Shown here: piece by piece, positions 1 to 55,263 of the stretch
Position numbering within the stretch: the stretch's first letter is position 1
Layout: every line of letters starts with the position of its first letter
Source: Gracilariopsis chorda
Taxonomy: Eukaryota > Rhodophyta > Florideophyceae > Gracilariales > Gracilariaceae
Assembly (NCBI GenBank): GCA_003194525.1
Contig: NBIV01000350.1
Location: 1 to 58,183 of the forward strand
Direction: 5' to 3'
DNA length: 58,183 bases
Notes under the pieces: model-generated
Databases searched by the model: none
Told to the model about the DNA's origin: nothing
What the model saw: only the letters and a program-made list of their open reading frames with translations
Program-made: the position numbers and the translations under genes

Positions 1-282
1 CCCCTTGCACGCCTACTTCAGTGCCTGAAATTTTCACGCCTCCCCGCCAATCAAAAATTCAGCAGCAGCAGCAGCAGCAAAGCTCAGAGCTCATTGGCTG
101 CTGCTGCATGTTGACTGCCGCAGCTGCCAAGTGGCTGGCACTGCAGCAGTGCCAGCCACACCGCTGCACAGTGGCTGGAACTGTAGTTATTTTGGCGGTG
201 CCAGCCAATTACAATATACTGTACTCTGAATACACTCTGCAGTGCTAGCCAATCACTAACGCGCAGGCACTCCAGTACAACT
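1..282. repeat. CAG/CTG-rich repeat, partial copy 0
   Basis: A short CAG run after TTCAG, followed by several TGGCTGGCACTGCAG-like words, matches the two better-preserved units at 11.9-12.85 kb. The reading frame through it encodes only a poly-Gln stretch and is not taken as a gene. The block ends in CAACT, the left target-site duplication of Ty3/gypsy element 1, so that element probably landed in this repeat. Confidence 0.6.
278..282. repeat. Target-site duplication of element 1, left (CAACT)
   Basis: CAACT directly precedes the TG that opens the left LTR. The same five bases follow the right LTR at 11731-11735. Five bases is the usual duplication size for Ty3/gypsy integrases. Confidence 0.9.
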
Positions 283-1056
283 TGTAGTACAATACCCCGA
301 GATGGGAGCAGACACACAAGGGTGTTCGACGTCCTCCTCTGGAGGGTAGCGCAGCGGAAAAACCACCTGTGGTGAGCACACGAAGCCGGGTGTAAGACCG
401 GGACTCACCGTCACGACTAGCGTACAGGTGTAGAAACCAAGACAGACCACGAAGTGGGAAAGCGGAAAATGCAGCGACACACGAGTGGTGGGCGACGCAC
501 AAAGAGCGGTGCAGTGTCCACACGAGTGGGGCGGTGGTAGCGGAGCAACGGTAATCACCGGTAGTCGCAGAAACAACGACACCTGTATACGGGACAAAAG
601 AACAATAACCGCTGCGAAAACCTTCACAGAAACAAACACAGTAGTGGTAAGAATGTGCTGAAGCTCCACGAGGTGGGTAACTAGGCCTTCACAGGATGGC
701 GTCTCTCCAGATGGAGGTGGACACTCACCAGGGGACCTGAGTTAGAGCCAGACACTCGCTTGTTTGCGTTTACTTTGACCCGGGCAGCCGGAGCTCACAC
801 ACATAAGTAGTGGTGGCCCGCGCCCTGACAGTACAGTAGTAATTAACTAATAATATCCCTAAGGGGGTCCGAACCTCTACACACGTGTGGCACAAGCCAG
901 CAATGCTGTGCACTACACTTGTCAACCAAATTGGGGCCCTTCAAACGGAAACAACATACCGGTGTAACACTCATACTCCATGGTAGAGAGGTTAGCATCG
1001 CCAACGCGGAATATGACGGCACCACGTGCTGATACCGCTATTAGCGTTGCACTTCA
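283..1056 (-). repeat. Left LTR of element 1 (its 3' LTR)
   Basis: It aligns along its whole length with 10959-11730, starting TGTAGTACAATACC and ending GTTGCACTTCA on the plus strand. It is followed at once by a pyrimidine tract, the complement of the polypurine tract. Scattered substitutions separate the two LTRs, so the insertion is not recent. Confidence 0.93.
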
Positions 1057-1074
1057 TCTCCCCCTCCTTAAGGA
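1057..1074 (-). other. Polypurine tract of element 1
   Basis: On the minus strand the sequence next to the 3' LTR is AAGGAGGGGGAGA. The same tract borders the LTR of element 2 at about 52253. It is the standard plus-strand DNA primer site of LTR retrotransposons. Confidence 0.8.
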
Positions 1075-1126: not shown

Positions 1127-2933
1127 ATGTCCGCGTCGAGCGATGGCACGTTATCCGACTCGGGGTTCTTCATCACGCAAGTGGACATACAACGAGAGCA
1201 ACTCGACAACTGTACTTCTCCGCCTACTCCACGACGACCTTCCTTGTCTTCCGCTCCTACTGCGATGAATCCGCACGACACCAAACCGCATGGCGGGAAC
1301 GATCTTCCGCTATCGGGTTTCTTCTCTGGCTTTCCGACTGCACCACTCCTGTATTCTGCAGGTCCTCCAACCAACGCCTCAGGCGGTTTACCTGCCACTC
1401 CGAGCATGTCGGTTCCATCGCCTGCGGCGAGCGCATTACCATCATATGATGAGCTCGTTTCCGTTGATCCGGCCAAACATCCGTCTCGCTACAGCGGTGC
1501 GCCCTGGTTTCACCCAACATTGGTGCAGCATGAAGACCTCATCGAACAGTACGCTGATGGTAGTGGGCTCCTGCCGGGTGATCTTCATGTTTGGATGACA
1601 CTCAGCTTCGACTGGCGTAACCGGGTTGCCGTGCCAACACACGTTCTGGTCCACCGTCGTGGTGAGAATGGGGCGCAAGCGCGTATTGCGATGATTCAAC
1701 TCGCGTATCAGCGGCTGTATCGGACTCCTTCGGAATTCCCGGTCCCGGAAGAATATCACTTTGATATCGCATTCTACCGCACCCAAAGCGAGATGGGGTA
1801 TGGCGACCGCTTAGCAGCGTTGGCTCCGTCCATCCCGGAACGGGGTCCGGCAGCAACAGTCCACCAGAACTATCTGTGTTGGGCGAGACCGATCCTTCGT
1901 CCTGAGTTCCGTTATCTTCGCCATCATCCGCGGTCTAACTTTCTCCAGATGATCCGTTTCCCTCGCGATCGCGCTTCGGGTATATGATACCGTATCAGAA
2001 CGTTGAAGCTGAGCGCATCCAACCGCAGTACATGCGAGGCCGTTACGTTCCCCTACTCAGGATGTGGGCTGCCTACGAGGCTTGCAAGGGTTGCTATATC
2101 GAGCTTCCGCCGTGCATCACCTACATCGGTAGTCGACTGTGCAGCAATCCGTTCTCCGGGTGGTGGTCCGTTGTACTCAATGAGTGGGTCGCCCACGCAG
2201 CGGCGTATCTTCTCTTCGAGGTCTACGACCAGTTCAGACTGTGGTATCTCCCTCCGCGAGTGCGTAGCGGCATCCATGAAGTGGATCACTCCCTCGTTCT
2301 CGGCGGTGCCGGCAACTATAATGAGGGGCTCTCCCTGTTGGACGCCATGGGCCAGGTTGACTGGAACAGTGTGCCCATTCAATGGAGTCGCGGTCATCAA
2401 GGTACCAACCCAGCCCACCGGTCTCCGGGGCGCCGTACTCCGTTAGCGGGTGATTACGTCTACTACGATCCTGTAGAGCGTCGTTTCATCTCCGAACCGG
2501 AAGCATTGGCATTCCGCGATCGCGAGCGAGTTGTTCCACCGGGTCATCCGACGGGCTACATCGTCACACTGACGGATACTTCCAACCCTACGAGGAGGCC
2601 GATCCAATGATGGACAATGATCCTCCCACGACTGGGGTTAGCGCGAGCGGTGGCGATGGCCTTTCCTCAGCTGAGGGCTCCGAGATTCCGGCGTATACCA
2701 TTTCGGGTCCGTCCGTGGCTCCTCCAGCTGGGCCGAGTCACGTTCCATCATGGAACATTCCCCACGTCGGTGGTGGTCCCTTCCACACCGCTCCGGTTGG
2801 AAGTAGCGCGCTATCGGCGGATTTGTACTGGTCAAGACCGTGCAGCCATCATTGCCCAATTCCTTGGCGAACTAGGAATGGATACCTCGGAGATCTTCCG
2901 GTGACATCTCGCAAATGCGGGTGGTCATGCTAG
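1127..2933 (+). pseudogene. Antisense accessory ORF of element 1, frameshifted (aORF-1)
   Basis: This reads opposite to gag-pol, between the chromodomain end of pol and the 3' LTR. The first ATG is at 1127 (MSASSDGTLS). Three overlapping pieces (1127-1987, 1984-2610, 2607-2933) each meet at ATGA. Comparison with the relative in element 2 (52428-54143) shows these are breaks in one ancestral frame of roughly 570 codons, not separate genes. Shared words include APWFHPT, RPILR.EFRYLR, PYQN.E.ER..P..MRGRY, YIGSRL, LWY.PP, SPGRR and PRGHP-like GHPTGY/GHPVGF. The N-terminus is rich in Ser, Pro and Thr; the middle is Trp- and Tyr-rich; the C-terminus is acidic and low-complexity. No signal peptide, convincing membrane segment, zinc knuckle or nuclease motif is visible. 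Function is unknown. An envelope or a second gag are conceivable, but nothing in the sequence supports either. Confidence 0.8.
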
Positions 2934-3278
2934 CGCGGCTGGCGCAGCCAGGCCATCCTCATCAGAGTGGTGGTCCATCCTCTTGAGGGAGCAAAGCGAT
3001 GTTCCCAACGGTTGGCGTCCACCGTCCCTGATAGTGGGGGTCGTGGTAGTAGTAAGCGGGGGGAATAAGTGTTAACGAATAAACGCTAAACTTCCCTCGT
3101 GGGGCTTGTGTCTTTTTCTTCTTTTTCTTCTTGCTTCTTCCTATCTAAGGTCTTCATCTTCTCTTCATGAGCCATCTTCATCTTCTCTTGATGAGGTTTC
3201 CAATCTTCTCGTCTTCTCGAGGCCTCCATCTTCACACTGGGAAACCGGGCTCGCGGTTCATCCGATCGATTCAGTGGC
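2934..3278. other. Spacer between convergent aORF-1 and pol
   Basis: Pyrimidine-rich sequence (repeated TTCTTC/CATCTTC words) between the tail of aORF-1 and the stop of pol. Element 2 has a comparable pyrimidine-rich spacer at 54144-54479. It probably serves as 3' ends for the two convergent transcripts. No gene is seen. Confidence 0.5.
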
Positions 3279-4811
3279 TTACTCAACGAGCGCACGGTCA
3301 ATCTTGCCGGGTATTCCCGTTCTGGTACGGTGGTGATACTGCACGATTTTCGATCGGGGCAAGTTCTCTACCGGTTCGTCCGTGTCATGGGACGGCGGGT
3401 ACCCATACCAGCGTACCTCGTACTGAACGTATCCCTCTGGGTTGTAACGGTGCCCGACGATACGGTCGATAATGAACTTCCTTCGAGTAAACATCACGCT
3501 CGCAGTTCCGGTTGCACTCCGCACGACGGTAGTTTCCGACGGCGGAGCCGGTGATGGCTCCGTCCAACGGTTCCTGGCGCTCGCTTGCGGCGTCGGCCAC
3601 GCGATTCCCTGATGAGGGTAAACTGAATCCCTCGTTGAGGTTGAGTTTACCCAATCGGGTTCGAGAGATCGTACCCCCAAAATGCGAAGGCTTCCTCGTC
3701 CCATTTGTGATGGTAGGCGACGGGGAGGCGGTCCATGGGCCACGGCGCGTGCCGGTTGGCGAGGCGTATCCATATGGTTGGCTGTCGTCATCCTGTACTG
3801 CAGAGCTGTGTCAACATGAGTGGGTGTGCGGTGCACATCTCGCAACACGTGGTGGTCAGGCTCTCCTGCATATGCAGTGTGGGCCACCCCTGCTGGGGTT
3901 GACGCAACCAGTCTTTCACCGCTGTGAGCTGAATCCAGATGATCTGAGCTGCTCGGTACGGTACCAGAGAGACTTCCTCTGATGAGAGACGATTGAAATT
4001 CAGATATCCCATCTGTGGGACTATGAGCATCCCTTTGCGAGGGTGTAGAAGCGTCCTGTACATCAGGGTTCCATAAGTCGGGATCTGCTGTGACTTCTTT
4101 AGTCTGCGCTGCAGCGGCGGGGCTTCTTACGACATCCTCGACGGTCGTCGGTGAGTGGGGAGCCAACGGAGCGTCCGGGTTCTGAGCCAGGCTTCCTGCG
4201 TCCATTCCTCCAATGGGAGATGATACAACAGCGTTCGTGTCCGGTTGCCTTGACAGCGTCTGGCGAGTGCGGTTGAAAGTTGGCTCCCTCGACGGAGGTG
4301 ACTTCGTAGCGTGCTCACGAGGCTGCCCATCGGCGGGGCCGGTCCTTCCAGTCTGCTGAGGTAGTTCCACGCGTGCGGCGGTAGCGTGCGATGTCCCTAC
4401 TTCAGGTTGCCGTGTCTCACGACAGTTCACCAGAGCTCGCTACGGCGGTGTAGACTTCGCTGAAAAGCGGGATTGACTAGTCTCCTCCCCCTCCTTAGCC
4501 GGGGCGGCGACAGGGCTTGAAACAACGTCTGACGGTGCTTCAACACGCGGCGTAACGCGTGAACGAACGTGTATCGGAGTTTCCGAAGATTGCTGCGACA
4601 GCATCGGTATGTCCGACAGTCCTCTCGACGGGCGCGCAACGCTAATTGCGCGGTGCAAGGATCCTGCTGCGGCAGTTGGCATCAATTGAGCGTCCGGGGT
4701 TCCGGGAGCAGAAACGACTTCCGAATGCGGGTAAGGGGCTCGTACGACACGATCACGGCTGAACCGTCCCTGAGAATCACCAACTTCCAGTACAACTGTG
4801 TCTCGGCTCAC
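3279..4811 (-). pseudogene. pol: Pol C-terminal tail of element 1: disordered linker and chromodomain
   Basis: One frame, interrupted by a single stop near 4440. The long Pro/Ser/Thr/Arg-rich linker is followed, just before the stop, by a chromodomain with words such as VQYEVRWYGYPP and ENLPRSK. Chromodomains on integrase C-termini define chromoviruses and bind modified histone tails to steer insertion. The Trp found in the relative's GTWEPIQ (element 2) is lost here (DTDEPVE), so the histone-binding cage may be damaged. The linker is several hundred residues long, far longer than in typical plant or fungal chromoviruses. Confidence 0.8.
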
Positions 4812-5172: not shown

Positions 5173-6270
5173 TCACGGTATCGGTGTACAAATCCCAAGT
5201 ACGGGGTGCTCAACCGTATATGCGCGCAGAGTGGACAACAACGTTCGGTTCAACCGTTCCACCTGCCCATTAGCCTGGCGATGGTATGTCGTTGTAAACA
5301 GATTCCTGATGTCAAGTATTCTACAAACGTCTTGGAAGAAACGCGCGGTGAACTGCGTTCCGTTGTCGGATAAAAGACTAACCGGTGGACCGTAGACGAG
5401 AACCCAGTGACGGACGAATGCTTCGGCCACTGAACGTGCGGTAATCTTCTTCAACGGTACAGTCCGGACGAGTTTGGAGAACCTATCCGTTATTACGAGT
5501 AGAAACTTGTTACCACGTGAGGTGTGAAGGAACTCACCGAGGATATCGATAGCGACAAGTTCTAACGGGGCCCGTGCCGGGAACAGGGTCACCTTCTCCG
5601 CATAGCGGTGCAGTTTCATTTGTTCACGAGCACAGTGAGTACAAGACCGAACAATCGCGTAGCAATTCAACGCTAGTGCGGGCCAGTACAAATGCCGACG
5701 TAACGTCGTGTAGAGCCTCCGTCCACCAGGGTGTGCAGCTAACTTCGAGAAATGCGAGAGATGCAATACTTTCGACTGAAGAAAATGGGGAACCACTATT
5801 TGTGACGAAGAAGACACAGTCCTTACCAAGTAACCTTGTGAGTCAACTCCAAAAGGAATGTGAGCGCCTCCATTGAGTTGGGTACGAATCTTCGTACAAA
5901 ACGGGTCTCCATACTGTTCGCGGATCATCTCTTCGGGAGTGATCGGTGCGAAGGATCCGGTATCCAGTTTGCCACCGTCAGCGACGAGCAGATCATCAAC
6001 AATGTCATCTGAAACCAGATCATAACTTGAATTCTCTTCAAGGAGGAAACAAGGGATATCATCGTCATCGACGGGAAAGGTTTCCGCTTCCGTTCCTAAA
6101 CGAGACAGAGCGCCAGCCTGGGTATTTAGGGAACCCTTTTTATAGAAGACTTCATAATCGAACTCAGCGAGGCGTATTCTCCAACGCATCAGGCGGCGCG
6201 AAGGTTCCGTGACGGACATTAACCAACGCAAAGCGGAGTGGTCCGTATTAACAGTGAAGTGTGCGCCCAT
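5173..6270 (-). pseudogene. pol: RNase H (C-part) and integrase core of element 1
   Basis: It begins with the tail of RNase H (NTDHSALRWL). The integrase zinc domain follows (HLSHFSKLAAHPG then CTHC), then the catalytic core with AIDILGEF, LSDNGTQF and QVERLNRT, giving the D,D,E triad. It reads on from the reverse-transcriptase frame across one TGA at 6298-6300 that replaces a Trp codon (element 2 has VVWALATLRPYLMG there). The frame breaks again at the end, near the WDL motif. Confidence 0.88.
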
Positions 6271-6297
6271 CAGATATGGTCTGAGTGTTTGCAGAGC

Positions 6298-7815
6298 TCA
6301 TACCATGGCGAGGCATTCCTTTTCACGGACTGAGTAGTTCCTTTCGTGGACGTTGAGCGTTCTGTACCAAAAACCGATTGGTTTTCGTTCCCCATCGGGA
6401 GTCGTTTGGAATAGCGCACAACCAATTTGGTAATCACTCGCATCCGTATCCGCGGTATAAGGTAACCCATCCTTAGGCAACGATAATATCGGTGCAGAGG
6501 TGACAGCCTCCTTCAGAGAGTTGAAAGCTTCCACCTGTGCAGGGTTAAAGGGGCCCAGTTTTGGCGGTTGTCCTTTTCGGAGAAGATCATTAAGGGGTCC
6601 CGAAATCTTTGCGAAGCTTGGAATGAACCGTCGATACACGTTACATAACCCTAGAAAGGAGCGGAGTTCTGTTTGGGTTCTCGGTTGCTTGGCCTCTTTG
6701 AGAGATTTGACTCGAGCTTCCTGTACCAGCAAGCGCCCAGGGCGAATGACATGGCCCAGGTACTTAACCGACTCGGTAAAGAATTCGCACTTCCTCAGCT
6801 TGAGGGTTACTCCAGCATCACGCAACGTGGTCATGATTTCACGAACGTGTTTTAAATGATCATCCAAGTTGTTGGAGAAGACTATGATATCGTCAAGATA
6901 GGCGAGGCACGATCGCCATTTGGAGCGGGCCAAAAGGATATCCAACGCACGCTGGAAAGTAGCGGGAGCGTTTGTTAATCCAAACGGCATACGCTTAAAG
7001 CGGTACCAACCTGAACGATAGACGAAAGCGGTCTTTTCACGGTCTTCCGGTCTTACTGGTACTTGCCAGTATCCCCAGTTCGCATCCAATGTGGAGAAGA
7101 CAGTCGCCTCACCGAGAGAGTCAATATACTCATCCATTCGCGGTATGGGGTACACGTCTTTCACGGTGGCGGCATTAAGGCGACGGTAGTAGATGCAAAA
7201 ACGCCAAGTCCCATCGGGTTTCGGAGCCAGTACTACTGAGGATGCCCACGGTGATTGAGCGGGCTCTATCACGCCTTCGCGGAGCATTTTATCCACATGA
7301 AACTGTTCCTCCTCCCTTGCCTTGGGGCCTGCCCTATAGGGGTGTTGAGAAATCGGCTTGGTGTCCGGTACTAGATCAATCCGGTGATCCATGGCCGAGA
7401 CCTCCCCGAGGGATCCATCCCACATTGAAGTGAACTCTCGCAACATATCTCGCAACTTCTCGCGGTGTGAATCCGGTACATGACCGAAATCCAGATCTTC
7501 TAGGTCCTTTACAGGGTCCAACTTATCGTAACTCGTAGGAACGGCCTTCTTCTCCGAATCTTTCGTGTTGAGCGACTCCACAGAAGAGTGGGAACCCTCC
7601 CCCTCCTTAGCATGAGGCGTATCATTTCGTTCTTGAACTAATCCGAGTACATCGGCTGCGCACACCTTTGTAAGGATTAAAGCCGTTGGATGCGGAAGTA
7701 CAGTACCAACTACTTGGTTCTTCGCCAGGTACTGCGGCTTCTTGCCAAAGTTGGCTATCAAGACCTGAAAGGGGTGTTCATTTGAGATCTGAACGACACC
7801 ATTAGCCAGGGCCAA
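6298..7815 (-). pseudogene. pol: Reverse transcriptase and start of RNase H of element 1
   Basis: Full set of Ty3/gypsy polymerase motifs: ASSVVLAPKPDGTWRFC, YPIPRMD, MPFGLTNAPATFQRA, and the catalytic YLDDIIVFS followed by YLGHVI. Then comes the RNase H start (DTDASDYQIGCALFQ). It would copy the element RNA into DNA. The frame does not join directly to protease upstream: a stop and a frame change lie at 7816-7880. It ends at a TGA replacing Trp. Confidence 0.93.
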
Positions 7816-7877
7816 TTGATACTTCTCTTACAGCGAGGTGAGCGGTTGAACCACACGCAATCCTCTTGGAGCGGCAG

Positions 7878-8596: not shown

Positions 8597-10264
8597 TCAG
8601 TTTTCCTGAGTGGCATCCGTTTTCACGGGAATGATATTTTGCGGCATTGACGCGGTTAGCGGAGCCGGCTGCCGAGAAATAGAACCATCCGCCGAAGCGG
8701 CTTGACTCGCAGAAGCGGTGGCCGGAAAAGAACCAGTGTTGGGTACCGCTTCAGATTGAACTGGTGTAAACTTATGAGGAAGCTCGGTCTTCGCACGCAA
8801 GTATGCGGTAACAGGAACTGATGCCTGTTCTTCCGGGGTCAGGGCTTCGTATTTAACAACCACTTTCGGCATCTGCCTCAGAGTCATGATACACTGCGGG
8901 GCCGTGTGTCCATGGTCGTAACAAAGGTAACAGATCAACGTCTGGTGTCTCCCGATGTTTCGGTTGTACTGAAACTTCACCGTCGACGAGCGCGTATCCA
9001 CCCAACCAAGTCTCTGGTAACGATTTACGTTAGCATACGGGACTTGTGGGCCGCAAACGCGGTGGCGATCTGCATACAGCAGTTGAATATCCGGTTCCAC
9101 CGAAGGTTCCGTTGTGGACGGGAGCTCCGTTGTGGGTATGGAAACCAGATCATGCTGAGTAAAATAAACACTGTCAACCTCACGTCGAGAGTACTCCTGG
9201 GGCAGCAGTGAAACTGACGACGGGGCGGCCTCCATGTGTAGGGCCTGCGATCTGACTCGGCTTCCGGAGCGGGCACGTAGAGCATCTCCTTCCGCCTTCG
9301 CGTACTGTACCAATTCTAAGTAGGTAACCTTTCTCCTGTCTTCCCGACGTTGGGCCACAAGAGTGCAGATAGCCGGATCCAATCCGTTGATAAACTTTGT
9401 ACAACGCTCGCTAGCGGAATAAACATTGCCACATCGGTGGAAGGCCTTGTCCAGTCTAACTGAGTACTCGGTCTCCGTTTCCTTCGGGCGTTGCTTAGTA
9501 TCGCGCAGGGCCAGGATAGCTTCCTGTATTGCGGTTCCTGTCGCATACGAGCGTAGCAAATACTGAACGGCTTCGGGCCAACAAGTGACCCCTCCTTCAG
9601 AGGCGCGAGACGAACCTCTTACAGAGTTGAATTGATCTTCAGCGATTCCACGTAAGAAATACGGTAGGGCGACGTAAGCCTGTCCTTCACTCATTCCGAG
9701 GATATCCGCCTCCGCTACAAAGCGTGAAAGAAAATCCAGAACGAGAATCGGATCCCTTCCAGCGAAATTCTGGTTACGGAACGACAAAGCCATCCGCTTG
9801 ATGCAGTCTTTTCCCTTCCCAGTTCCACGGGGTGTACGATCCAAAGAGGAATCTTCCAAACGGTAGTACCGGTATGATAAAAGCTTCCTGTACAAAAGGT
9901 TAGTAGGCTTCAGTTCCATCAAACCGGAGTGCTTTCTTCCCTTCTGTCGGGCTCTAATCTCACCATGGGTGGCTGCTGAACGACGCGAGTGCAATGAATG
10001 AACGCGACGGTCACCGTCAGCAGACGAGTCAGACGAAGCGGATTCCGCAGAGCGGTTAGAATTCACCGATGAACAGGACGAGTCCGAGTCATAGTCGTTG
10101 TCATTCCGTTTTCGGGGGCAGTTCTTCGTGCGAGCACGGTCACCATGTCGATGGGAAACCACAGCTGGTGGGTCTGCGACATTTTCCTCACCTCTGATGG
10201 TATTTTCCAACGTCTCCAGACGGGACAGAACCCGATGAAACTTCGAGTCAACATCCTTCACCAT
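8597..10264 (-). CDS. gag: Gag of element 1, main part with zinc knuckle
   Basis: Five hundred fifty-five codons. It contains a basic/Ser-rich N-terminal region and a capsid-like region (DPILVLDFLSRFV and later ETEYSVRLDKAFHRCGNVY). Near the C-terminus is a CCHC zinc knuckle, CYLCYDHGHTAPQC, the nucleic-acid-binding signature of nucleocapsid. Element 3 gag shares the capsid words (RCGNV; DPITVLRFLSSF). The ATG at 10264 overlaps the end of an upstream in-register gag piece, so this start probably results from a frameshift. Intact as it stands, but part of a dead element. Confidence 0.85.
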   Translation of the reverse strand: MVKDVDSKFHRVLSRLETLENTIRGEENVADPPAVVSHRHGDRARTKNCPRKRNDNDYDSDSSCSSVNSNRSAESASSDSSADGDRRVHSLHSRRSAATHGEIRARQKGRKHSGLMELKPTNLLYRKLLSYRYYRLEDSSLDRTPRGTGKGKDCIKRMALSFRNQNFAGRDPILVLDFLSRFVAEADILGMSEGQAYVALPYFLRGIAEDQFNSVRGSSRASEGGVTCWPEAVQYLLRSYATGTAIQEAILALRDTKQRPKETETEYSVRLDKAFHRCGNVYSASERCTKFINGLDPAICTLVAQRREDRRKVTYLELVQYAKAEGDALRARSGSRVRSQALHMEAAPSSVSLLPQEYSRREVDSVYFTQHDLVSIPTTELPSTTEPSVEPDIQLLYADRHRVCGPQVPYANVNRYQRLGWVDTRSSTVKFQYNRNIGRHQTLICYLCYDHGHTAPQCIMTLRQMPKVVVKYEALTPEEQASVPVTAYLRAKTELPHKFTPVQSEAVPNTGSFPATASASQAASADGSISRQPAPLTASMPQNIIPVKTDATQEN

Positions 10265-10689
10265 ATCTGGGTAACCCTCAAAACCTCCAAAAGGGAATTA
10301 ACATCAGTCCGTAAAGTACGTAGATCTTCAGATACACCTCCGACGAGATCGGCATCAATCCTCATACGGAGTACATCAACCTCATTGACCAGGGGGGCGT
10401 GAGAACTTTCAAGCACCGAGGTCTGGGCTTGAAGGTTCTGCACTTGAGCCTCCAACTCGACAAGGAATGCGTCGTTCACCGCAGTGGCGGGTACGGAATT
10501 CCTAAGCGGAGCATCCGATGAACCAGCAACTGGCAGTTGGGACGACTTAGTCGATGGCTTCTTGTTTCCAGATCTGCGGTTATCAACATCCGAACATTCA
10601 GGAACTGACCGCGGTCGCGGGGGTAAATCAGCGCCGACTTGTCGCGACCTAGACTGACCCGAACCACGGGATCCAATTCCAGAACCCAT
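10258..10689 (-). pseudogene. gag: Gag N-terminus of element 1, coiled-coil piece
   Basis: The most likely start is ATG at 10689 (MGSGIGSRGSGQ). A longer open frame exists upstream, but its extra hydrophobic stretch looks like leader RNA translated by chance. After a basic, Gly/Ser/Arg-rich start comes a heptad-like segment (LEAQVQNLQAQTSVLES). It overlaps the main gag frame by seven bases and was probably joined to it before a one-base change. Confidence 0.6.
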
Positions 10690-10955: not shown

Positions 10956-10958
10956 GTT

Positions 10959-11730
10959 TGTAGTGCAATACCCCGAGATGGGAGCAGACTCACAAGGGTG
11001 TTTGACGTCCTCCTATGTGAGGGTAGCGCAGCGGCAAAACCACCTATGGTGAGCACACGAAGCCGGGTGTAAGACCGGGACTCACCGTCACGACTAGCGT
11101 ACAGGTGAAGAAACCAAGACAGACCACGAAGTGGGAAAGCGGAAAATGCAGCGACACACGAGTGTTGGGCGACGCGCAAGAGCGGTGCCGTGTCCACACG
11201 AGTGGGGCGGTGATAGGGGTGCAACAGTAATCACCGGTAGTCGCAGAAACAACGACACCTGTATACGGGACAAAAGAACAATAACCGCTGTAAAAGCGTG
11301 CACAGAAACAAACACAGTAGTGGTAAGAATGTGCTGAAGCTCCACCAGGTGGGTAACTAGGCCTTCACATGATGGCGTCTCTCCAGATGGAGGTGGACAC
11401 TCACCAGGGAACCTGACGTAGAGCCAGGCACTCGCTTGTTGCGTTTAATCTGACCCGGGCAGCCAGAGCTCACACACATAAGTAGTGATGGCCCGCGCCC
11501 TGACAGTACAGTAGTAATTAACTAATAATATCCCTAAGGGGGTGCGGAACTCTACACACGTGTGGCACAAGCCAAAAATGCTGTGCACTACCCTTGTCAA
11601 CCAAATTGGGGCCCTTCAAATGGAAACAACATACCGGTGTAACACTCATACTCCATGTTAGAGAGGTTAGCATCGCCAACGCGGAATATGACTGCACCAC
11701 GTGCTGATACCGCTACAAAGTTGCACTTTA
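10959..11730 (-). repeat. Right LTR of element 1 (its 5' LTR)
   Basis: Direct repeat of 283-1056. On the minus strand it ends GTATTGCACTACA and starts TAAAGTGCAAC, where TG has changed to TA. The retrotransposon promoter should lie within it; no TATA box stands out. Confidence 0.93.
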
Positions 11731-11914: not shown

Positions 11915-12845
11915 TCATGTATGAGGGGGTTGTTCTTGATTGAATGGAGGCGGTGCGCTAATAAACCACCCTGTCCTGTATGCCCCTCTACGCGCATGCA
12001 AAAATGCCATTTGGCACAACGCCTCCCTACCATTTAAAACATTCAGCAGCAGCAGCAGAAGCAGCAGCAAAGCTTGCTTCATACTGGCTGGCACTCCCAT
12101 AATGATGGAAGTGCAAGCCAGTTACACAAAGCAATGTTTCTCGCGTTCTTATCATAGGCTGACACTGCAGTCAATTTAGGAACCTAAACACAAACCCCTA
12201 CGGATTTATCGACTCTAGGCGCCGCAGCAACCCGTGGTTCTACGAGCGCTATTGCAAGCGCAAGCGAGCAAAGTGCTTGAACAGCCTCCGAACGCTACTA
12301 AATACACAAAGCTACAAAAACAACGCGGCGCGCAGTGCCGCACATGGCTGAAGGCTATTTCCACTTTTCTCTCCACTAAAAGTATTTATACGTGTATGAG
12401 GGGGGTGTTCTTGATTGAATGGAGGCGTTGCACCACAAAAAGCGTATTGCATACCCCTGTCTGACCGTGTAAAATGCCCATTTGGCACAACGCCTCCCTA
12501 CCATTTAAAAAATTCAGCAGCAGCAATACCAGCAGCAAAACGTGATGCTTACTGGCTGGCACTCGCATAATGACTGCAGGTTCTACTAGGTATAGAAAGC
12601 AACGTGTCGCGCTTTCTCATCATTGGCTGGCACTGCAGTCAATTTAGTCACCTAAACACGAACCCCTACGGCTACACAAATTCTAGACGCCGCGGCGCCT
12701 CGTGTTTCAACGAGCGCTACTGCCAGCGCAAGCGAGCAAAGTGCTCAGAAAGCCTCCGAATGCTACTAAATACAAAAAGCTACAAAAACAACGCGGCGCG
12801 CAGCGCTGCCCACGGCCGAAGTCCGTTTCTACTTGTGAGATAGTA
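11915..12845. repeat. Two tandem ~475-base units with CAG core
   Basis: Unit 1 starts near 11915 and unit 2 near 12390. Both begin GTATGAGGGGG.TGTTCTTGATTGAATGGA, pass through CCATTTAAAA..TTCAGCAGCAGCA and ACTGGCTGGCACT, and end in CTACAAAAACAACGCGGCGCGCAG. Unit 2 is cut by, or abuts, the retropepsin fragment. Copy 0 at the window start is the third, diverged member. No coding capacity is visible. Confidence 0.8.
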
Positions 12846-13578: not shown

Positions 13579-15138
13579 TCAAAGCGGAGAGCGAAAAGAT
13601 GTTCCAGCATACTTAGCTTTGCTTCCCAGTTGTTCCGCAATTCTTAGCAATTGGTTGTATTTCGAAAGCCGTTCAGATCTACAGGGAGCACCCGTTTTTA
13701 TCTGACCTGTTTGCAGACCCACAACAAGATCTGAATACATCGCATAGCAGAAAGTAAAAAACCTCAGAAGGACGTAGATGCAGTTAGTACTACAGACCAA
13801 AAAGCAATGTCGAATACAGCGCCAGAGCGTACCTGCAATGAAGGAATCTTCTGTTTCTCCAGAGCGATGTGAAACCATGACGCCCCATCCCGCTGCTTGT
13901 GCCTTATTACAAGCGGCAATAGATTCAGTAATAGAGCCGATCTGATTAACCTTTAGCAGCAAGCCATTGACAGATTTCTCTTCGATTCCCCTGGCGATTT
14001 TTTTGACGTTGGTAACGGTGAGATCATCGCCCACAATCTGAGTGTTTGACCCGACGTCAGCAGTGAAGGTCGAATACGCAGCCCAGTCATCCTCGTTGAA
14101 AGGATCTTCAATGGTGACCATTGGATAATCTTGAATGAAGCTCTTGTATAAATCGCCAAGTTCTGTAGATGATAGTTTCGATGTAGAATGGGGGTTTTTG
14201 AAGTCGAGGTCGTAATAATCGCCGTCTTTCTTGTAGAATTCAGAGGCTGCCACGTCCATTCCAAGGGTGATCTTACCCGAATAACCAGCCTTATCAATGG
14301 CGGCCATAAGGAGTTCTAAACCTTCTCTATTGTCTTGGATGTTGGGAGCAAATCCACCTTCATCACCGACCGAAGTAGCGTCTAGTCCGTAGGACTTCTT
14401 AATGACGCCCTTCAAAGCGGCATATACTTCGGATCCCATTTGCATGGCCTCCTGGAAGGAAGAAGCACCTGTGGGTAGGATCATAAACTCTTGCATAGCC
14501 AGCTTGTTTCCGGCGTGACTACCGCCGTTAATGACATTCATAACCGGAACAGGCATCATGGTCGGCTGGGAGCCCTTGCCCGCAATCTCAGAAATATGTG
14601 CATATAGAGGCACACCGTTCGCAGCAGCCCCAGCCATACAAGCGGCCATAGAAACGCCCAGAATAGCATTAGCGCCAAGTTTGGCCTTATTATCCGTACC
14701 ATCCAGTTCAAGCATGATAGAATCAAAGCTGGTCTGGTCGGTAACATCCGCGCCCTGAACAGCGGGTGCAATGATAGAATTAATGTTATCAACAGCCTTT
14801 AACACGCCTTTTCCGTTGTAGCGTTGCTTATCTCCGTCGCGAAGTTCAAGCGCTTCATACGCTCCGGTGGATGCTCCGGATGGTACGGCGGCGCGGAAGG
14901 TGCCGTCATTGGTGGTCAGCTCTACTTCGACTGTGGGGTTGCCACGCGAATCTAGGATCTCGCGGGCGCGGACGTCTGTTGTGAGGGCGGAGGATAACGA
15001 TGAAGCTACGGCGAGCCCGGGAGCGAGACACATGCCGGCTACGGCATTGTTGGAGCGCTTTGCTCGGGGTGAGAGCGCGTGGGGCGGGGTGAAAGCGCTC
15101 TTATGCAGCGTTGCAGGGGGAAATGAAAAGGCAAACAT
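13579..15138 (-). CDS. ENO: Enolase with N-terminal leader and one intron
   Basis: Converts 2-phosphoglycerate to phosphoenolpyruvate. Exons are 15138-13833 and 13730-13579, giving 485 residues; the open frame also runs through the intron. Family words: [71 protein letters not shown] (catalytic Lys) and SHRSGETED. About 50 residues precede the normal start and open MFAFSFPP, with the early Phe and hydroxylated/basic content of red-algal plastid transit peptides; a second Met (MCLAPG) lies within it. Plastid targeting is therefore likely but not proven. The end reads [11 protein letters not shown], close to the family C-terminus. Confidence 0.96.
13731..13832 (-). other. 102-base spliceosomal intron in enolase
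   Basis: The donor is G|GTACGC at 13832 and the acceptor TTCAG|AT at 13731. Splicing joins SFIA to [20 protein letters not shown], restoring the enolase sequence. The length is a multiple of three with no stop, so unspliced RNA would encode 34 extra residues that enolases lack. Confidence 0.92.
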
Positions 15139-15582
15139 CGGTAGGGAGGGGTTGGTCGTTTGAAGGGGTGATTGGCAGGGGTGGTTTGAAGATGCGGGCG
15201 GGGGTGAGGTGTGGCGGCGATGGAGATGGTGGTTGTGCGTTGCGACGTGGATCGGGCGTGGACAATGAATTGTGCGGCCTTTTGTGCGAGAGGAGGTCAG
15301 AAGGGCGATCGGCGCGTTTTGATTGGCTGCGACGTGTCAGACGTACGCCTTCAACAGGCGTGTTGAGCAAAGCCGCTGGTTGTCAACTGAAAGATGAAAA
15401 AGGCGGAAGGTCGCATAGCACGTGTGTTTTAGGCGGGTTGTTGGAAACTAAGCTATTCAACAAATGGAAGTAAGACAAAATGAGGTGAGATGCAAGTGGG
15501 ACGGATGCTACGACGATGATGGTATTGGAGCACGTGGTTATATCTATAGACCATTTGTACAAAACGGCGTTGGAAAACGTGT
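15139..15582. other. Enolase upstream region
   Basis: G-rich sequence between the enolase ATG and the CHMP2 stop. It presumably holds the enolase promoter and the CHMP2 3' end. No conserved motif could be named. Confidence 0.4.
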
Positions 15583-20037: not shown

Positions 20038-20902
20038 ATGATCTTGATAGCAGCAATGGGTTAGAGTTTTTCTTCAGATAGTTTGAAATCTATCGATATG
20101 TAAGGTTTCGTTCCTGTTCAAGACGTGGGTGAGTTTCATACTGTTCGGTCTGGATTCAATGATCTGAAGATCTTCTGCAGATCTCGAGAGTTCGAAACTC
20201 CAAATTAGTTTCATTTTGCTGCGATCAGCTGTCATCTTTTGCGCCACGTTCTTAGAACGAGGTTAGGAGAAGACTACGTCCAGGTGTCATTGCAGGACAA
20301 CGTAGAGCACCATTTCCTGCACTGTTCGAAACGGAGTCTAGGATATTAGAGTTTTCGCCTTCTCCAGAAAGAAGAGGAATGAAGCTGATATCATCAGCCA
20401 GTGCACGAAAAAGTCGTCAGCGTTCTTCAGAACAGAAAAGTTCTTCCTGCAAGAATTGTACGGATGTCGTATTCAGACACTTCGTGTCCACAAAGTTAGG
20501 AGGAGAAGTTCCAGCATGAAATCGCGAAAGAAAGTCGAGCTAACCCTTATCATTACTTGCTCAGTACTGATATGTAGCCTTCCAATTCTGCATGCGTTGA
20601 CTGCACCGCGTTGTGTGACTGTGTTAGATATCAACACAACTTTGACCGTGGGGTAGATTGCTACTTAGAAAGTGCTAGGTAGATATTGCGTGTGAGGAGT
20701 ATGTCAGATGCAACACACAGATGCATTCACAACCCGGTCTCAATTTCGATTAGAGCATCGAGTGTACAAGTTGTCCTGAAAGATCGCCCCTCGTCCTTGC
20801 CACGATACATTTCAATTCATCACTTAATCATGGTTGCATCATATCACCCCTCACGCCTCGTCCACTCAACTCCAAAACCCGCATTCCTCTTCATCATAAA
20901 AC
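20038..20902. other. Upstream region of the glycosidase-like gene, no gene
   Basis: No frame with family likeness. Around 20768-20815 the text CTCGTCCTTGCCACG recurs upstream of gamma (32188-32210), so the duplicated unit that carries alpha includes 5' flank. Confidence 0.45.
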
Positions 20903-21766
20903 TTGCCTTCCACTGCATCACACTTCATTGACAATCATTTCAACCCAACACTTCTCCGAAGATATCGAGCGCCAAGAAATGTGCAGAAGTGTCTTCCAGC
21001 TCTCACGTCTGCATGGCCTTTCTTCAAGAGAAGATATCGACCCGGCAGCCGCGAGAAATCGCGGTTCGCAACAACGGAAGGCAGCCTGTCCTCGACACTA
21101 CTGCTGTCAAGTGTGTCAGGCAGAAATTCTCCAGCATCTGCACCCCTGTTTCAAACCGAAGGCAAGAAGCAGGTCCGGAACTCGGATCAAAAATCGAAGG
21201 CCGTCTCAAGCCTTGAGCTCTCATCACCAAAGTCTCCACAATTCATGAGGATCTGAGGCAGGTAATTGAGGCATTACCAAACATAAAAAGCCCTCTACAG
21301 AGCCTTGAGACAGTCAAACCCGCACCGCAGGAGCAACGTCAAAGCCCTCCTACCAACTCGTCCTTAGATTTCCTGGTTAGCGTTGAGCCGGGCTCCAACG
21401 AAGGCTGGTGTTCATCGGGTTCCTCCGGTGCGTTTTTGGAGGTCATGGATCTTCCACCACCGGTCCAGGCTCACGGATGAGGACAAGAATTTCTTTCTGT
21501 CCACATTGGAAGTGGGCCTCTCCGGCGGCCCATACGCTCCAGCGCTATCCGGGGCCAAGCCGGTTGAGGAAGAGGCGGCGCGCAACGTGAATGCCAGGAT
21601 GGACGCCATCCGTTTGTGCGCGTTTCAGGGAGCGCAGGTATCCGCAATAGCCGCAATTGATCCTGACGGTGATGCATGGACGCCAGCGCTCGAAGAAGCG
21701 CGAAGGGGGGCTGCGGAGAACAGAAAGGGGGTGACCGAACCACCGTCGCCAGAAGATGGAGTATGA
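20903..21766 (+). pseudogene. Copy alpha of an unknown multicopy gene
   Basis: Nucleotide likeness to the intact gamma copy (32607-33449) runs from about 20975 to 21766. Shared words include LTDEDKNFFLSTL, GGPYAPAL.GAKPVEEE and RMDAIRLCAFQGAQVSAIAAIDP. The long 3' frame (21383-21766) keeps the conserved C-terminal domain, but frame changes near 21220 and 21470 disconnect it from the N-terminal half, and no clear start remains. Function unknown. Confidence 0.75.
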
Positions 21767-30224: not shown

Positions 30225-32606
30225 CAATGAAAGGCAAACTTGCAAGCGAGCTTCGTTTAAGCAGTAAGCACATAAGAGAGAGAGAGAGAGAACTGCCGTC
30301 CATAGCCAGGAGACGTCAGCTCGAGCCGGACTACCGTATCTATCATATCTGAAGTACGTCTGAACACTTCAACGCTTTGCATGCTTTTCGTATTTTTGTG
30401 CCATGCACCTATTAAATGACCCTACCCTTGGTGAGAGTCGAACATCCAGCTTTTGTGGAAATTCTGAGGTTCTCTAGTTTGTTTGCAGGTTCTTTATTGA
30501 CGACGCACGTTGCCTTATGCCGACTTCTCAGTAACCGATACCTAGAATCCAGGCCTGTTCTTTGTTGTTTGTTCATGTGGGCGGTGCCCCTAATTTCGAG
30601 ACAATGGAATTAACTTCTACAATGTAGAAGGCTAAATTCCCCTTGTAGACCCGACTGCATCTCCATTAGGCTCTCTCGTCCGACGTAGCTTCAAACTCTT
30701 TTGCAGCCTTTTCGGAAGGTTGGCACACCTCGACAGGTGGGACTGCATGTGCCATGAGCGGGACTCGCCGGGAAATCCAACTCTACGGGGATGCATTCTC
30801 TCGCCAAACCGCCCGGAGGACTATCCTTCAAAGACGAACTACCTCTCACATGCCAGCCGACATCATGTCGTGCCCGATAAAGATTTTCTCTGTCCCGTAA
30901 CGATAATCTTGGTCTCTGTCACTTGAACGTACAGTAGCCGGTGGCAACCGTTTGCTCCCGCTTCGCTGCCTTACACGCTCACTAGCTATATCCCAGGATG
31001 TAGTAGGTCAGCATGTTTCGGCCGGGAGACCTGACTGCCCTTCCATTTCGCTCTGGCGCGTCTCGCCATTTTCATGCTTCTCTCCGCTCTTCGTCTTCCT
31101 TCAACCGTGAACGCGAGCTAAAAGGTACAACACACAAGGCGGATAGTGTGTACCACATTTGTTCGGGCTTCATGAAGAGAAGAAATAGCATCTCCGGAAT
31201 ACTAACTGGTATTGTGGGATCAACACTACAATTAATTCACATACGAACAGATTTCGTGTACCGTGGGAACATAGGTAGTGTTGTTCGTATCTCTGTTGCC
31301 GCTAAAAAGAAAGCCTTGAGCGTGGTCTGAGCTTCAATATGGGCTCGCGTAAAGATAAAGAAGAGCTCGGGTGAAGATAAAGAAAGCAGTGAATCGAGTT
31401 AAGAGCTGCCTCCTTTTCGGGAAAGGCAAGGTTTTGACTTTCAATCAATAGTTAGAACATGGCCAGATAAGTTGCTGGTCTATTGTTGTGTTTCTGATAA
31501 CGCTATTCCCCCTGGCAGCTTTGAAACTGCTTCATATCAGCGGGTGAAAGCGACAGCATCACGTAAAAGCCCCTGCGGCCATGTGCTAATTCTTTTGCAG
31601 CCATCGTGACAAAAACAGCAACAGCAGTCTGTGCTTCAAGACGTGAAGACTTGCGACTAAAGAGCGGTTATAACAAAACCCTCTCAAGGTAGACCAGCAT
31701 TGAGAAGTGACCTGAAGTTGAACCTTCTCCCTTCTCTATCCAGTACTAGTCGCTCCAGCTTTAAATAAACTCGATCATTCTCATGGCTTCTTCGCCGCAG
31801 TCACCCCTCACCGACCCGAAATGAAAAGTTGTTGGTCTCCGTGAGAGATCGCCACTCCATTTCGCTCCCGAGGGAAGACGGCCAAACCTCGAGAAGGTGG
31901 ATCGGCTTCTGCCCATCAGCCACCCAAAAGCATAGGAGCTTTTTGTTCTACGACCACTGCGTTGCGATTTCAGGCACCAATTCGAGCACGGGTTGCCTAT
32001 CCTACAAAGGCATATTGGTATATTAGGTGACACTGTCAAATTCCAAACCCCCTTCGACCGTAAACTACGAACAACGTACAAGGTTTTGGGTGTGACACAA
32101 TGTCAGATTCTAACTCACAGATATACGCACATCCTTGTACTAATTGCAATTCGAGGGTCGACTATGCAGATGGCCCTGAATGATGGCCTCTCGTCCTTGC
32201 CACGGGACATCGTAAGCTCTCATCGCTCATTGATAATTACCTTCCCTATTGCTTTTCTATCACCTCAGGGAACAATTTCAGTGCGGGTGACGTAGTTTCT
32301 CACATACCTGAGTGACATTTGCTTGCGTTGGTCCGATACGTTTTCAGCACCCACGTTTCGTCGGTCTCTAGGTTGTGGACAATTGACAGTGAGCGTGATA
32401 CAAGTGACATGTCTGCATGCCCGTAGTGCAATTGAAACCGATGCGTAGTCCGCACACATGAGTTCGCTCTGCTTATCTATGAGCATTTGAACTGACATAG
32501 GCCCCCTTCTGCACGTTCACCCCCGACAAAAACGCTCCCCATAACCCCCCGCCCCACGAACTCTTCTTTTCGCCCCCACAACTCCGTTCCCCATCATTAC
32601 TGAGAG
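30225..32606. other. 2.4 kb without supported genes
   Basis: A short (GA)n tract lies at 30275-30291. 30600-30730 matches the LINE 5' part at 35080-35240 (minus strand). A direct repeat GCTCGnGTnAAGATAAAGAA lies near 31345-31390. 32160-32210 is the upstream segment shared with copy alpha. Open frames of about 100 codons at 31013-31330 and 31761-32081 have no family features. Confidence 0.5.
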
Positions 32607-33449
32607 ATGCCGAAGCATAACAACTACGCAAAGGTCATTCCTGTTCTCATATCCGCCGCCGCTGCTGTTCTCTGCACGGCATTCTTTGGAAAGAGGAAAT
32701 CAGGACATGGCCAAACCGAAAACGCTACCGAGGACCCTCCCGAAGATGGGAGGCAACTTGCCCTCGGCACTGCTGCTGTCGAGAATGTCAAGCAGAAATC
32801 CTCGAGCATCTGCCCCCAAGTTTCAAACAGAGTCCAAGAACCAGGTCCGAAGCTTGGATCAAAAATCGAAGGCCGTCTCAAGGCTCTCATCACCAAAGTC
32901 TCCACAATTCGCGAGGATCTGAGGAAGACAAATGAGGCATTATCGAACACAAAAAGCCCTCTACAGAGCCTTGAGACGGCCACACCCGCGCCGCAGGAGC
33001 ACCCTGATGCCCCTCTTACCAACTCGCTTTCGGATTTCCTGGCTGGCGTTGAGCCGGACTCCAGCGAGGACTGGTGTACGTCGGGTTCCTCCGGTTCATT
33101 TTTGGAGGTCATGGACCTTCCACCACCGGCCACGCTCACGGATGAAGACAAGAATTTCTTTCTGTCCACATTGGCGGCCGGCGCATCCGACGGCCCATAC
33201 GCTCCAGCGCTACCCGGGGCCAAGCCGGTGGAGGAAGAGGAGGCGCGCAACGTGCAGGCCAGGATGGACGCCATCCGTCTGTGCGCGTTTCAGGGGGCGC
33301 AGGTATCCGCCATAGCCGCAATTGATCCTAACGGTGATGCATGGACGCCAGCGCTGGGAGAGGCTCGAAGGGGGTCTGCGGAGAGCAGAGAGGATAGGCA
33401 ACTGAAGCACCGTCGCCAGCAGGTGGTATATGATTTGGATGAAATATGA
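32607..33449 (+). CDS. Copy gamma, intact unknown protein with N-terminal anchor
   Basis: 280 residues. A hydrophobic segment at 9-27 (KVIPVLISAAAAVLCTAFFG) with a basic flank (KRKSGHG) suggests a membrane anchor. An acidic, Ser-rich segment follows, then a helical/coiled segment (about 85-122, KALITKVSTIREDLRKTNEA), a Pro/Ser linker, and a C-terminal domain (about 170-255) with LTDEDKNFFLSTL, YAPALPGAKPVEEEEAR and RLCAFQGAQVSAIAAIDPNGD. The two relatives nearby, alpha and beta, are pseudogenes, and this C-terminal domain is the part alpha keeps best. I recognise no family. It may be a lineage-specific multigene family. Confidence 0.72.
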   Translation: MPKHNNYAKVIPVLISAAAAVLCTAFFGKRKSGHGQTENATEDPPEDGRQLALGTAAVENVKQKSSSICPQVSNRVQEPGPKLGSKIEGRLKALITKVSTIREDLRKTNEALSNTKSPLQSLETATPAPQEHPDAPLTNSLSDFLAGVEPDSSEDWCTSGSSGSFLEVMDLPPPATLTDEDKNFFLSTLAAGASDGPYAPALPGAKPVEEEEARNVQARMDAIRLCAFQGAQVSAIAAIDPNGDAWTPALGEARRGSAESREDRQLKHRRQQVVYDLDEI

Positions 33450-47546: not shown

Positions 47547-47651
47547 CCTACAGTAACAGCCGTTTGGACCTTAAGGAAAGACGTTTACGCATAGGACTTC
47601 TACCATTGGACTATTAGTCGACGCAAATGGCTCGAAAGCAACACCGACCGT

Positions 47652-52427: not shown

Positions 52428-54143
52428 ATGACCAACACTCCGTTTTCGAACAACCCGCCTGCGGGCGCCCCGCAGGGGGCTTCCGCGAGCGGACAACCTT
52501 CCTTCGCGACGCCGGGGTCGTGGGTTCGTCACCCAACCTCTGGTTTCCTCTCCTTGCCTCTGCCTGGAGGATCGTCTCATGTTCCAACCTTGGATGCCTC
52601 GGATGCCGCGAGTATCGCCGCCTGGAATTCCGCTCAAGCGATACCGATCACTGCGACCGCCGCCGGCTGGGTGTCACCATCGACACTTTGGGCCCGCAAT
52701 CCCCGGGAAGACGCTCTCCTCTTTTCGCGTGCGCCCTGGTTCCACCCCACATGATTTTCCGACTAGGACCTCATCGACTCCTATGTGGAGGAGGGCGAGC
52801 TCCCAGGGGGACTAGGCCGGGATATGGTCGACTCCTTCGACTGGAGGACGCGTATCGCGGTAGAGCCACAGTTCCTCGCACGGAAGCGCACCAGATATGG
52901 TTTCGAGACGCTGAATGAAGCCCGTGCCGGGATGGCCAAGGTCGCCTACGACCGTCTCGCCCGCGCGAGTTATCCGGATGAGCTGGTACCAACGGAATAC
53001 AGCTTTGACCTCTCGCGGTACCGTACCTACGGTGAAGTCTCATACTGCGAGAACCTTGCTGCCTACCAGCCATCTACACCGTTCCGGTCCACTCCAATAG
53101 AAGCCGGGATGCTCCTCTGGAGGCGCCCAATTCTGCGTGCAGAGTTCCGATATCTTCGTCGTCCGAATCATCGCGGATCCTTCTTCGACCGACTCCGGTT
53201 TGAGCGAAAGGCGCGCTCCCGCTTCGGGTTCCTGGTACCATACCAAAATCTCGAGGTCGAGAGGCTCCGTCCATCCGCGATGCGCGGCCGGTATGCACCT
53301 CTTCCCCATTGGTGGAGCAGGTTCGAAGTCCCGAGGGGATGCTTTGCGGAGATGCCTCCGTGCCTCAGCTACATCGGTTCACGATTAATCAACAATCCGG
53401 ATTCCGGTTACTGGACTCTCTTCCTCGCCGAATGGGCTGCTCGCGTTGCCGCATTTCTCCTCTGGGAGGTGTACGACAAGAACCGTCTGTGGTACATTCC
53501 TCCTCACCTACGCCAGGTTATCCGCCGATTGGATCTCTATATCCCTCTGGGATCCGAAGCCAATGTGGATGAGCTTCAGTGCCTTCTGAACACCATCGAT
53601 ATGGTTAACTGGGATACATTCCCAGTCTCCAACGTCCCTGACGGTGAGCCTTCCAGGCATGATCGCTCTCCAGGCCGGAGAAATCCAAACGCTGGCAACT
53701 TCGTCTTCTATGACCCTTGGGAGGTATCCGTGACTTCACGGGCTCACGCGCTAGCGTTACGCGATGTACCACGCTCCGTTCCGCGAGGCCACCCGGTTGG
53801 GTTCATGTTTTCCGATGACTGGCACGGTTCCTACGAGGATGATCCAATGGTGGATGACGACCCCGATGAGGTGGAGGAGGCCGTAGCCCCGGTAACGGCG
53901 ATGGTCGACGATCTCGACGGATCCGGCCAGCATGTGTCTGCTCCAGATGGCTGGAATATGGCCGCCAGTGCGGCTGCTTCTCCGTCTACCGCATCTCCGG
54001 TCCCCGTGGACCCTCAGGCCGTTGCCCTCAGGGCTCACCTCCAGTCCATTGGAGTGGTTGCGCCTTCCAACCTCACCAGCGTGAGCGAGTTATTGGCTTT
54101 CGCGTCTGCGAACTACCAACCGCCAACGAGCGGCTCATCCTAA
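52428..54143 (+). pseudogene. Antisense accessory ORF of element 2 (aORF-2), two stops
   Basis: One register of 571 codons from ATG 52428 (MTNTPFSNNPPAG), interrupted only by TGA at 52752-52754 and TAG at 52764-52766, immediately after APWFHPT. The frame from 52785 to 54143 is open for 452 codons. It is homologous to aORF-1 throughout: FDWR.R.AV, Y..L.R..Y..E, YSFDLSRYRTYGE, LLWRRPILRAEFRYLR, VPYQNLEVERL, MRGRYAPL, PPCLSYIGSRL, LLWEVYDKNRLWYIPP and RGHPVGF. It has a Ser/Pro/Ala-rich N-terminus, a Trp/Tyr/Arg-rich core and an acidic tail (VDDDPDEVEEA) ending in a helical segment. The function is not recognised. Confidence 0.85.
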
Positions 54144-54479: not shown

Positions 54480-55205
54480 CTACCCAACCTGGGCCATGTC
54501 CAAAGTGGATGGGAGTGGGAACCGCGTCCGGCGGTGGTAGGTTATCACCTTGGAACGAGGAAGGTGCTGAATGGGCTCCCATGTGCCCTCTTCCGGGGGG
54601 TATCCGTACCATCGGATTTGGTAAAACCACACTCCTTTGGAGTCCAGAACATGATCCACGATGTGGTCAACGACAAACTCCTGGTCGTACGTAGCCGGCT
54701 CCTGACCCGTCATGGCAGGGCTTAAGGGGAGAACCCTGTGAGGGGACTTGCCTGAAATTGGCGCGACCCTGCGGGCAAAGTCAGCTTTCCTCGACGCTGC
54801 GAGTGCTGGGACTTGATACCGCATTGCGGTCTTTCCGCTTCCTAATCCTCTCCTTTGGGGGGGGGCCTTCCGTTCTAACCGGATTCCCCTATTGACTCGC
54901 AGCTCGCGAGCTCTTCTCCCACGCAACCCGTGCAACTCTGGTGAGTTTGACCGTTCACGGTGAGGGAGGCGGTTCACTACGGTTCCGACGCCAGGAGGCG
55001 GATTGCCATGCATCACACACTGTGATTGGCTGGCCGCTGGCGGCAAGTGTCGCGCGCGGTCTTTCCACGACGCGGGTCTTGACTGTACTCCTGACGCCGG
55101 CCGGCGGTATGTACGTGTACACCTTTCCACGGTTTGGAACTTCGTGCTTCGTCCGCGTGACAGTGGCGTCACAGTGTCCATTTGTGGGGCTCTGCGGTAA
55201 CGCAC
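54480..55205 (-). pseudogene. pol: Chromodomain tail of element 2 pol
   Basis: C-terminal chromodomain EFVVDHIVDHV, WFYQIRWYGYPPEEGTWEP and HLPRSKVITYHRRTRF, with its aromatic residues intact. It is in a different frame from the integrase C-terminal piece, so a frame change lies between 55205 and 55264. Confidence 0.85.
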
Positions 55206-55263
55206 GCAGTGTCAACCACACTATCCGTGTCCGCGGTTGCTTTTCAGCTCACCACGAAACTGG

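Follow-up and report, generated by a model that had tools for sequence, protein, structure and literature searches.

Chromodomain elements and their antisense gene

Positions 1 to 58,183 of contig NBIV01000350.1 of the red alga Gracilariopsis chorda (assembly GCA_003194525.1), referred to below as the window, carry a Ty3/gypsy element (element 1) with a plus-strand reading frame between pol and the 3′ LTR, and a second element (element 2) with a frame at the same place. This locus raises the question of whether such a frame is a protein gene, whether it belongs to the elements or to the host, and what its product may do.

Element 1 lies on the minus strand and comprises a gag ORF, a reverse transcriptase (RT)-RNase H region, an integrase and a Chromo-bearing pol tail (Table 1); its LTR pair shows 51 differences over 787 aligned columns, ragged ends counted. 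In both window elements the Chromo domain was found on the minus strand at the C-terminus of pol. An earlier note, made from the sequence alone, had described a plus-strand ORF beginning at an ATG at 1127, between pol and the 3′ LTR and convergent with pol; its start proved exact, and the minus-strand Chromo domain agrees with the convergent arrangement. Besides this first ATG there is a second one in frame at 1265, which agrees better with the starts called in some database relatives and is the probable start; the gene begins 76–214 bases away from the 3′ LTR. The end given in that note (2933) had to be revised, as this position is the end of one frame piece only, and the alignable protein continues to the homologous stop, TGA 2984–2986.

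The element 1 gene is frameshifted; the intact relative P0002 aligns to it (tblastn) in pieces in changing frames: 968–1996, 1963–2889 and 2894–2965 in frames 2, 1 and 2. The element 2 gene contains two in-frame nonsense codons at 52752–52766 and is open from 52767 to 54143, so that the two different kinds of lesion reported earlier for the two copies were both recovered. Their proteins share 48.8% identity over 203 amino acids (E 1.3e-68), whereas blastn of the DNA returned matches of 24, 14 and 11 bases only, as expected from the earlier claim that the protein is alignable despite well diverged DNA. Element 1 therefore carries the broken remains of an antisense gene, and element 2 carries a relative of it.

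Table 1. Features of the two elements in the window (strand relative to the contig).
Feature	Position	Strand	Remarks
3′ LTR, element 1	282..1051	-	approximate ends
Polypurine tract adjoining 3′ LTR (pyrimidines on +)	1052..1073	-	probable, inferred from sequence
Antisense gene, element 1	1127..2986	+	frameshift-broken; alternative start 1265; based on open relatives
AATAAA 3′ of antisense gene	3078..3083	+	94–95 nt past stop in open relatives, lineages A and B
pol end with chromodomain, element 1, convergent with antisense gene	3279..4439	-	PF00385, E 2.5e-10
pol: RNase H end, integrase zinc domain and core, element 1	5173..6297	-	ORFs and Pfam
pol: reverse transcriptase and RNase H, element 1	6298..7827	-	PF00078, E 6.6e-36
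gag ORF, element 1	8597..10297	-	CCHC-like motif by eye; no Pfam match
5′ LTR, element 1	10958..11727	-	approximate ends
Antisense gene, element 2	52428..54143	+	two nonsense codons, first quarter
pol chromodomain end, element 2	54480..55211	-	ORF and Pfam
Reverse transcriptase end and RNase H, element 2, near contig end	56899..58053	-	ORF and Pfam

Several other features of the window were recorded. A piece of a third element, on the plus strand and with gag- and RT-like ORFs recognised by eye, is located upstream of element 2 (47595–51407), and a tandem duplication near the 5′ LTR of element 1 (11977–12814) has two units, each of about 470 bases, that match at 81%. Beside element 1 there is an enolase-like host ORF (13579–15336), in which a stretch near the C-terminus looked foreign by eye and is perhaps an in-frame intron. 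Finally, a segment among the host genes is duplicated (20712–21728 and 32112–33393), with pieces 72–90% identical and 11.4–11.7 kb apart.

Copies and lineages in Gracilariopsis chorda

Searches of the G. chorda genome revealed many further copies, the counts being lower bounds since scoring covered the best candidates (e.g., the best 67 of 1678 for P0001). The DNA of the element 1 gene matched at least 40 rows, of which at least 23 (query included) covered the full query at 80–100% and at least five more spanned 1216–1575 bases. With the protein P0001, at least 15 rows covered 663–664 of its 664 residues, eight of these 15 being free of stops (19 of 67 overall). The element 2 protein gave at least 93 rows, 80 of the 93 stop-free; at least 75 were near-full (449 or more of 458 residues, query included), and 73 of these showed 95% identity or more. 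Absence of any other open red-algal copy had been named in advance as an argument against a gene, and many were found, e.g., 65 of the 75 near-full element 2 rows, the open copies consisting of a single stop-free frame of about 590–690 codons.

At least seven lineages of elements were distinguished: A/B (element 1), C (L067), D (element 2), E (P0005), F (L073), G (L074) and H (P0021), the last known as an annotated protein only. P0005 matched its own family at 97–99% (C355 at 99%, from residue 88 onward), other families at 51–59% and those already known at 42–46%, and P0007 revealed additional families at 34–40%, with frames open up to 660 codons. Flanks were read in lineages A/B, C, D, F and G, and at every one the gene was antisense to pol. 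At eight of nine loci (L067, L073–L075 and L077–L080) a chromodomain-like pol end was recognised by eye on the reverse strand, facing the gene; the exception, L076, has a pol ORF without such an end.

A similar association was found when starting from the element 1 RT: among the matches listed, 21 RT rows reach at least 90% identity, and 18 of them have an antisense gene 3–4 kb beyond, on the opposite strand. In C199 the gene lies about 14 kb from the RT, in C89 it abuts the RT, and for the C47 row no antisense gene was present among the matches listed. Five contigs with an RT 72% identical to that of element 1 (C57, C619, C620, C666 and C676) likewise had no antisense-gene row among the matches listed; these are possibly elements without the gene or with a more distant version of it.

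Four G. chorda gene models annotated as host "hypothetical proteins" (BWQ96_10156, 03215, 08668 and 05903) are members of this element gene family. BWQ96_10156, the model of which omits a short stretch within the open frame, is shown to be an element gene, and the three others probably are element genes as well.

Relatives outside the genome and co-divergence with reverse transcriptase

A search of 5.8 billion proteins, in which the best 8000 candidates were scored for each query, gave at least 2, at least 6 and at least 30 matches for successive queries, including proteins of G. chorda, of Agarophyton chilense (both Gracilariaceae) and of further assemblies, and no homologue was found in IMG/VR. 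In a tree of 27 rows many deep lineages were present, 11 of the 24 inner branches were well supported, and five A. chilense rows fell together with lineages F and G of G. chorda.

The order of divergence is equal for RT and antisense protein. The element 1 family and lineage C share about 76% identity in RT and about 50% in the antisense protein; for element 2 the values are 75% and 69% against C264, and 72% and about 45% against the C355 family.

Selection on the antisense protein

The earlier note had argued that the frame was selected as a protein in the ancestors of the two elements, and had proposed dN/dS as a check, with values near 1 speaking against it. Between lineages the ratios were 0.13–0.27. 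With the IQ-TREE codon model an omega of 0.130 was obtained for eight representatives over 409 codons (lnL -9545.1, compared to -9997.1 at omega 1) and of 0.208 for 19 open copies, the input consisting of open frames only and being thereby biased towards selected copies. Fixing omega at 1 worsened the fit by 452 and 399 log units, respectively (kappa 2.0 in the omega-fixed runs, 1.64–1.68 when fitted). Pairwise estimates (Nei-Gojobori) gave a dN/dS of 0.228 (CI 0.17–0.29) for subfamilies A and B, which differ at 60, 41 and 133 first, second and third codon positions, of 0.164 (CI 0.095–0.219; dS 2.0) for F and G, and of 0.142 (CI 0.094–0.187; dS 1.5) for element 2 and C264. Wider pairs ranged from 0.15 to 0.27 with saturated dS, three of them having no finite value.

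Young pairs showed ratios of 0.26–1.2, one reaching 1.97 on seven changes and that of element 2 and C79 being 0.749 (CI 0.585–1.016); the pairs with L009 and L023 take in stretches past frameshifts, which raises their values. These ratios towards 1 are evidence of drift after insertion, recent single copies being little constrained.

For the neighbouring pol tail the A–B ratio was 0.575 (six of ten pol pairs were computable), which indicates that this tail is less well preserved than the antisense gene. The control for reading frame, made with the pair L004 and L017, found frame +0 free of stops and 11–33 stops per copy in each of the other five frames, among which minus frame 1 had a dN/dS of 0.335 and the rest 1.2–2.3. 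A chance ORF is excluded because of the many open copies elsewhere and the omega of 0.13, and the existence of a selected protein gene is practically certain.

Composition and predicted structure of the protein

The earlier note had recognised no domain in the protein, and this holds both at curated Pfam cut-offs, above which no domain was found among the members scanned, and in comparisons with PDB and BFVD. In five proteins a single Pfam match had an E-value below 1 (TPR_10, 0.053, in P0002); in 22 members five families matched, all weakly, most often E3_binding, in five members (best E 0.029), with Ish1 in one, and none of the families matched indicates a regulator. A sequence search of PDB gave no match for P0001 and a best E of 0.36 for the profile. 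Profile and structure searches had been suggested as a check: homologues were detected in A. chilense, and no fold matched in PDB or BFVD.

The AlphaFold2 model of the element 2 gene product (23 sequences; pLDDT 77.9, pTM 0.72) predicts a mostly helical core that ends near residue 287 and in which most block means are 85–96, low confidence at 350–411, and a helix-loop-helix at 416–449. Foldseek retrieved no known fold with this model (best E 5.6 in PDB and 1.6 in BFVD). When the C-terminal tail was searched alone, Ish1 was matched in four of 18 members (best E 0.002), one of these matches scoring 14.5 bits against a curated cut-off of 26.6. Ish1 is grouped with the SAP/HeH-like nuclear domains, and as a lead the tail may point in that direction. 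An Env-like protein, i.e., one encoded in sense orientation and with a transmembrane segment, was rejected: the gene is antisense, and no 19-residue window with a mean hydropathy above 1.5 was found in five of six proteins, P0014 being borderline with 1.86.

Possible transcription signals

An AATAAA hexamer follows the stop at 94–95 nt in lineages A and B, 87 nt in C and 78 nt in G, i.e., in three of five lineages. It is absent within 450 nt of the stop in lineage F, and by eye in the 400 nt following the element 2 gene, where an ATTAAA lies farther away. Given its rate in the window (0.0002 per base and strand), the chance of an AATAAA within 100 nt is about 2% per lineage. At the other end, the frame of L004 and L017 (lineages A and B) is already open from inside the LTR, which, together with the closeness of the gene to the LTR, suggests that the antisense promoter is probably located in U3.

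Comparison with known antisense genes

The spliced message of HBZ, the antisense gene of HTLV-1, encodes a bZIP protein, which acts as a nuclear regulator. The gene described here similarly begins on the 3′ LTR side, and differs in that its frame is open without splicing and no bZIP occurs among the families matched by the 22 members, so that an HBZ-like bZIP protein was rejected. The antisense promoter of HTLV is in the 3′ LTR (PMC7264820).

In plants, the aORF-3R of Ty3/gypsy elements (Grande gene23, RIRE2, Retand ORF4, PvRetro13) is antisense, sits between pol and the 3′ LTR, is present in most copies and conserved, and has no known function (PMC7264820). The G. chorda gene is alike in being a long antisense ORF at this place, in accompanying most of the close RT rows listed and in encoding a conserved protein. 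It is unlike the plant genes in its red-algal host, its chromodomain carrier and the lack of TRP28; no link in sequence to them was detected, the plant sequences entering this comparison indirectly. TRP28 (PF04195) was found in none of the 22 members, nor in the G. chorda genome, a search in which the control genomes gave one weak match, in E. coli, and hence no positive control. Of the likeness to Grande, RIRE2 and Retand proposed earlier, place and orientation stand, but descent is not supported. Retand, moreover, is assigned to a non-chromovirus lineage (PMC11963269), whereas both window elements have a Chromo domain. The carriers share with chromoviruses RT, RNase H, integrase and a C-terminal chromodomain, a class assignment based on these domains.

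The earlier note had mentioned antisense ORFs in some plant Tat-lineage elements; Boty elements of fungi are a further reported case (PMC7264820). The brtn gene of Boty-like elements of Botrytis cinerea (PMC8365987) was set beside our family by description only. In line with the earlier statement that none was known, no antisense gene of red-algal chromoviruses was found among the titles and abstract openings listed in searches of the open-licence literature. On the best reading, this is a new protein family within a known kind of gene, the antisense aORFs, with no detectable relationship to the plant TRP28 type.

Possible function and alternative explanations

The proposed explanation is that of an accessory protein gene of Gracilariaceae chromodomain Ty3/gypsy elements, expressed from its own antisense transcript and encoding a nuclear regulator. 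The gene would be driven by a promoter within the 3′ LTR or next to it, and the message would stop at a poly(A) signal of its own, short of the pol end and separate from the sense message, so that the protein could be made apart from Gag-Pol. The product, with a low-complexity N-terminus, a conserved helical core, a linker without predicted order and a C-terminal helix-loop-helix, would be nuclear and may regulate the element, e.g., LTR transcription, chromatin or integration. A nuclear regulator is favoured because of the place of the gene and the analogy with plant antisense aORFs, for which a regulatory role has been proposed and of which the Grande protein was reported to be nuclear (PMC7264820). 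We consider the chances of the whole reading evenly balanced, and those of the nuclear regulatory role, taken by itself, somewhat under even.

Two alternatives agree that the gene encodes an element protein and assign it another task. As an antagonist of host defence, it would block silencing or another defence, with scarcity of lysine as a means of avoiding ubiquitylation; lysine deserts can shield proteins in this way (PMC10169902). Lysine is nearly absent from the antisense protein, with one in the 664 residues of P0001, and arginine makes up 8%; in lineages A, B, C and H a core of 330 residues has no lysine against 37–38 arginines, compared to 34 lysines and 35 arginines in the element 1 RT. 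However, the adjacent pol tail is also lysine-poor (5 Lys, 37 Arg), codon composition alone already lowers the expected lysine content to about 2%, and other members have 2–11 core lysines (for D and F the windows had been cut too short for a core count), which leaves this explanation unlikely. A cofactor of the particle or of integration, i.e., an additional structural or pre-integration protein needed in amounts unlike those of Gag-Pol and hence given its own message, is consistent with a gene that accompanies pol in the lineages read and with the aromatic-rich core; yet profile comparison revealed no similarity to element 1 gag or integrase, and the low hydropathy noted above does not favour it either, making such a role quite improbable.

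The remaining alternatives are a functional antisense RNA and a captured host gene. In other elements the antisense RNA may work via dsRNA (PMC7264820), and the functional product could be the RNA rather than the protein; as the sole function this is contradicted by the omega of 0.13 and by an absence of stops specific to one frame, and it is extremely improbable. Recent capture of a host gene by one element would account for the annotation of four members as proteins of the host, but P0005, the one checked, sits in a multicopy family, the tree has many deep lineages, and among relatives with readable flanks none was seen outside elements; we regard it as highly improbable. The reading as an accessory gene with a nuclear regulatory product is retained in the form given above. 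A wider version, on balance doubtful and offered tentatively, would see a family with a new fold, confined to antisense genes of red-algal chromoviruses, which arrived independently at the place and role of HBZ and of the plant aORFs and which, because the elements do not persist without the protein, was maintained while the Gracilariaceae diverged.

Significance

Most antisense genes described in LTR retrotransposons are from plants, Boty being a case from fungi, and what they do is not known (PMC7264820). The present family shows no detectable kinship with the TRP28 type of plants; its host is distant, many of its copies are open and selection on it is strong. At 91 Mb, the G. chorda genome is of a size that suits strand-specific RNA work. 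For the annotation of this seaweed, it means that BWQ96_10156, and probably three more genes, belong to elements. If antisense genes arose more than once at this position, that would suggest that the stretch from pol to the 3′ LTR favours them, and would permit a comparative test of what antisense genes do.
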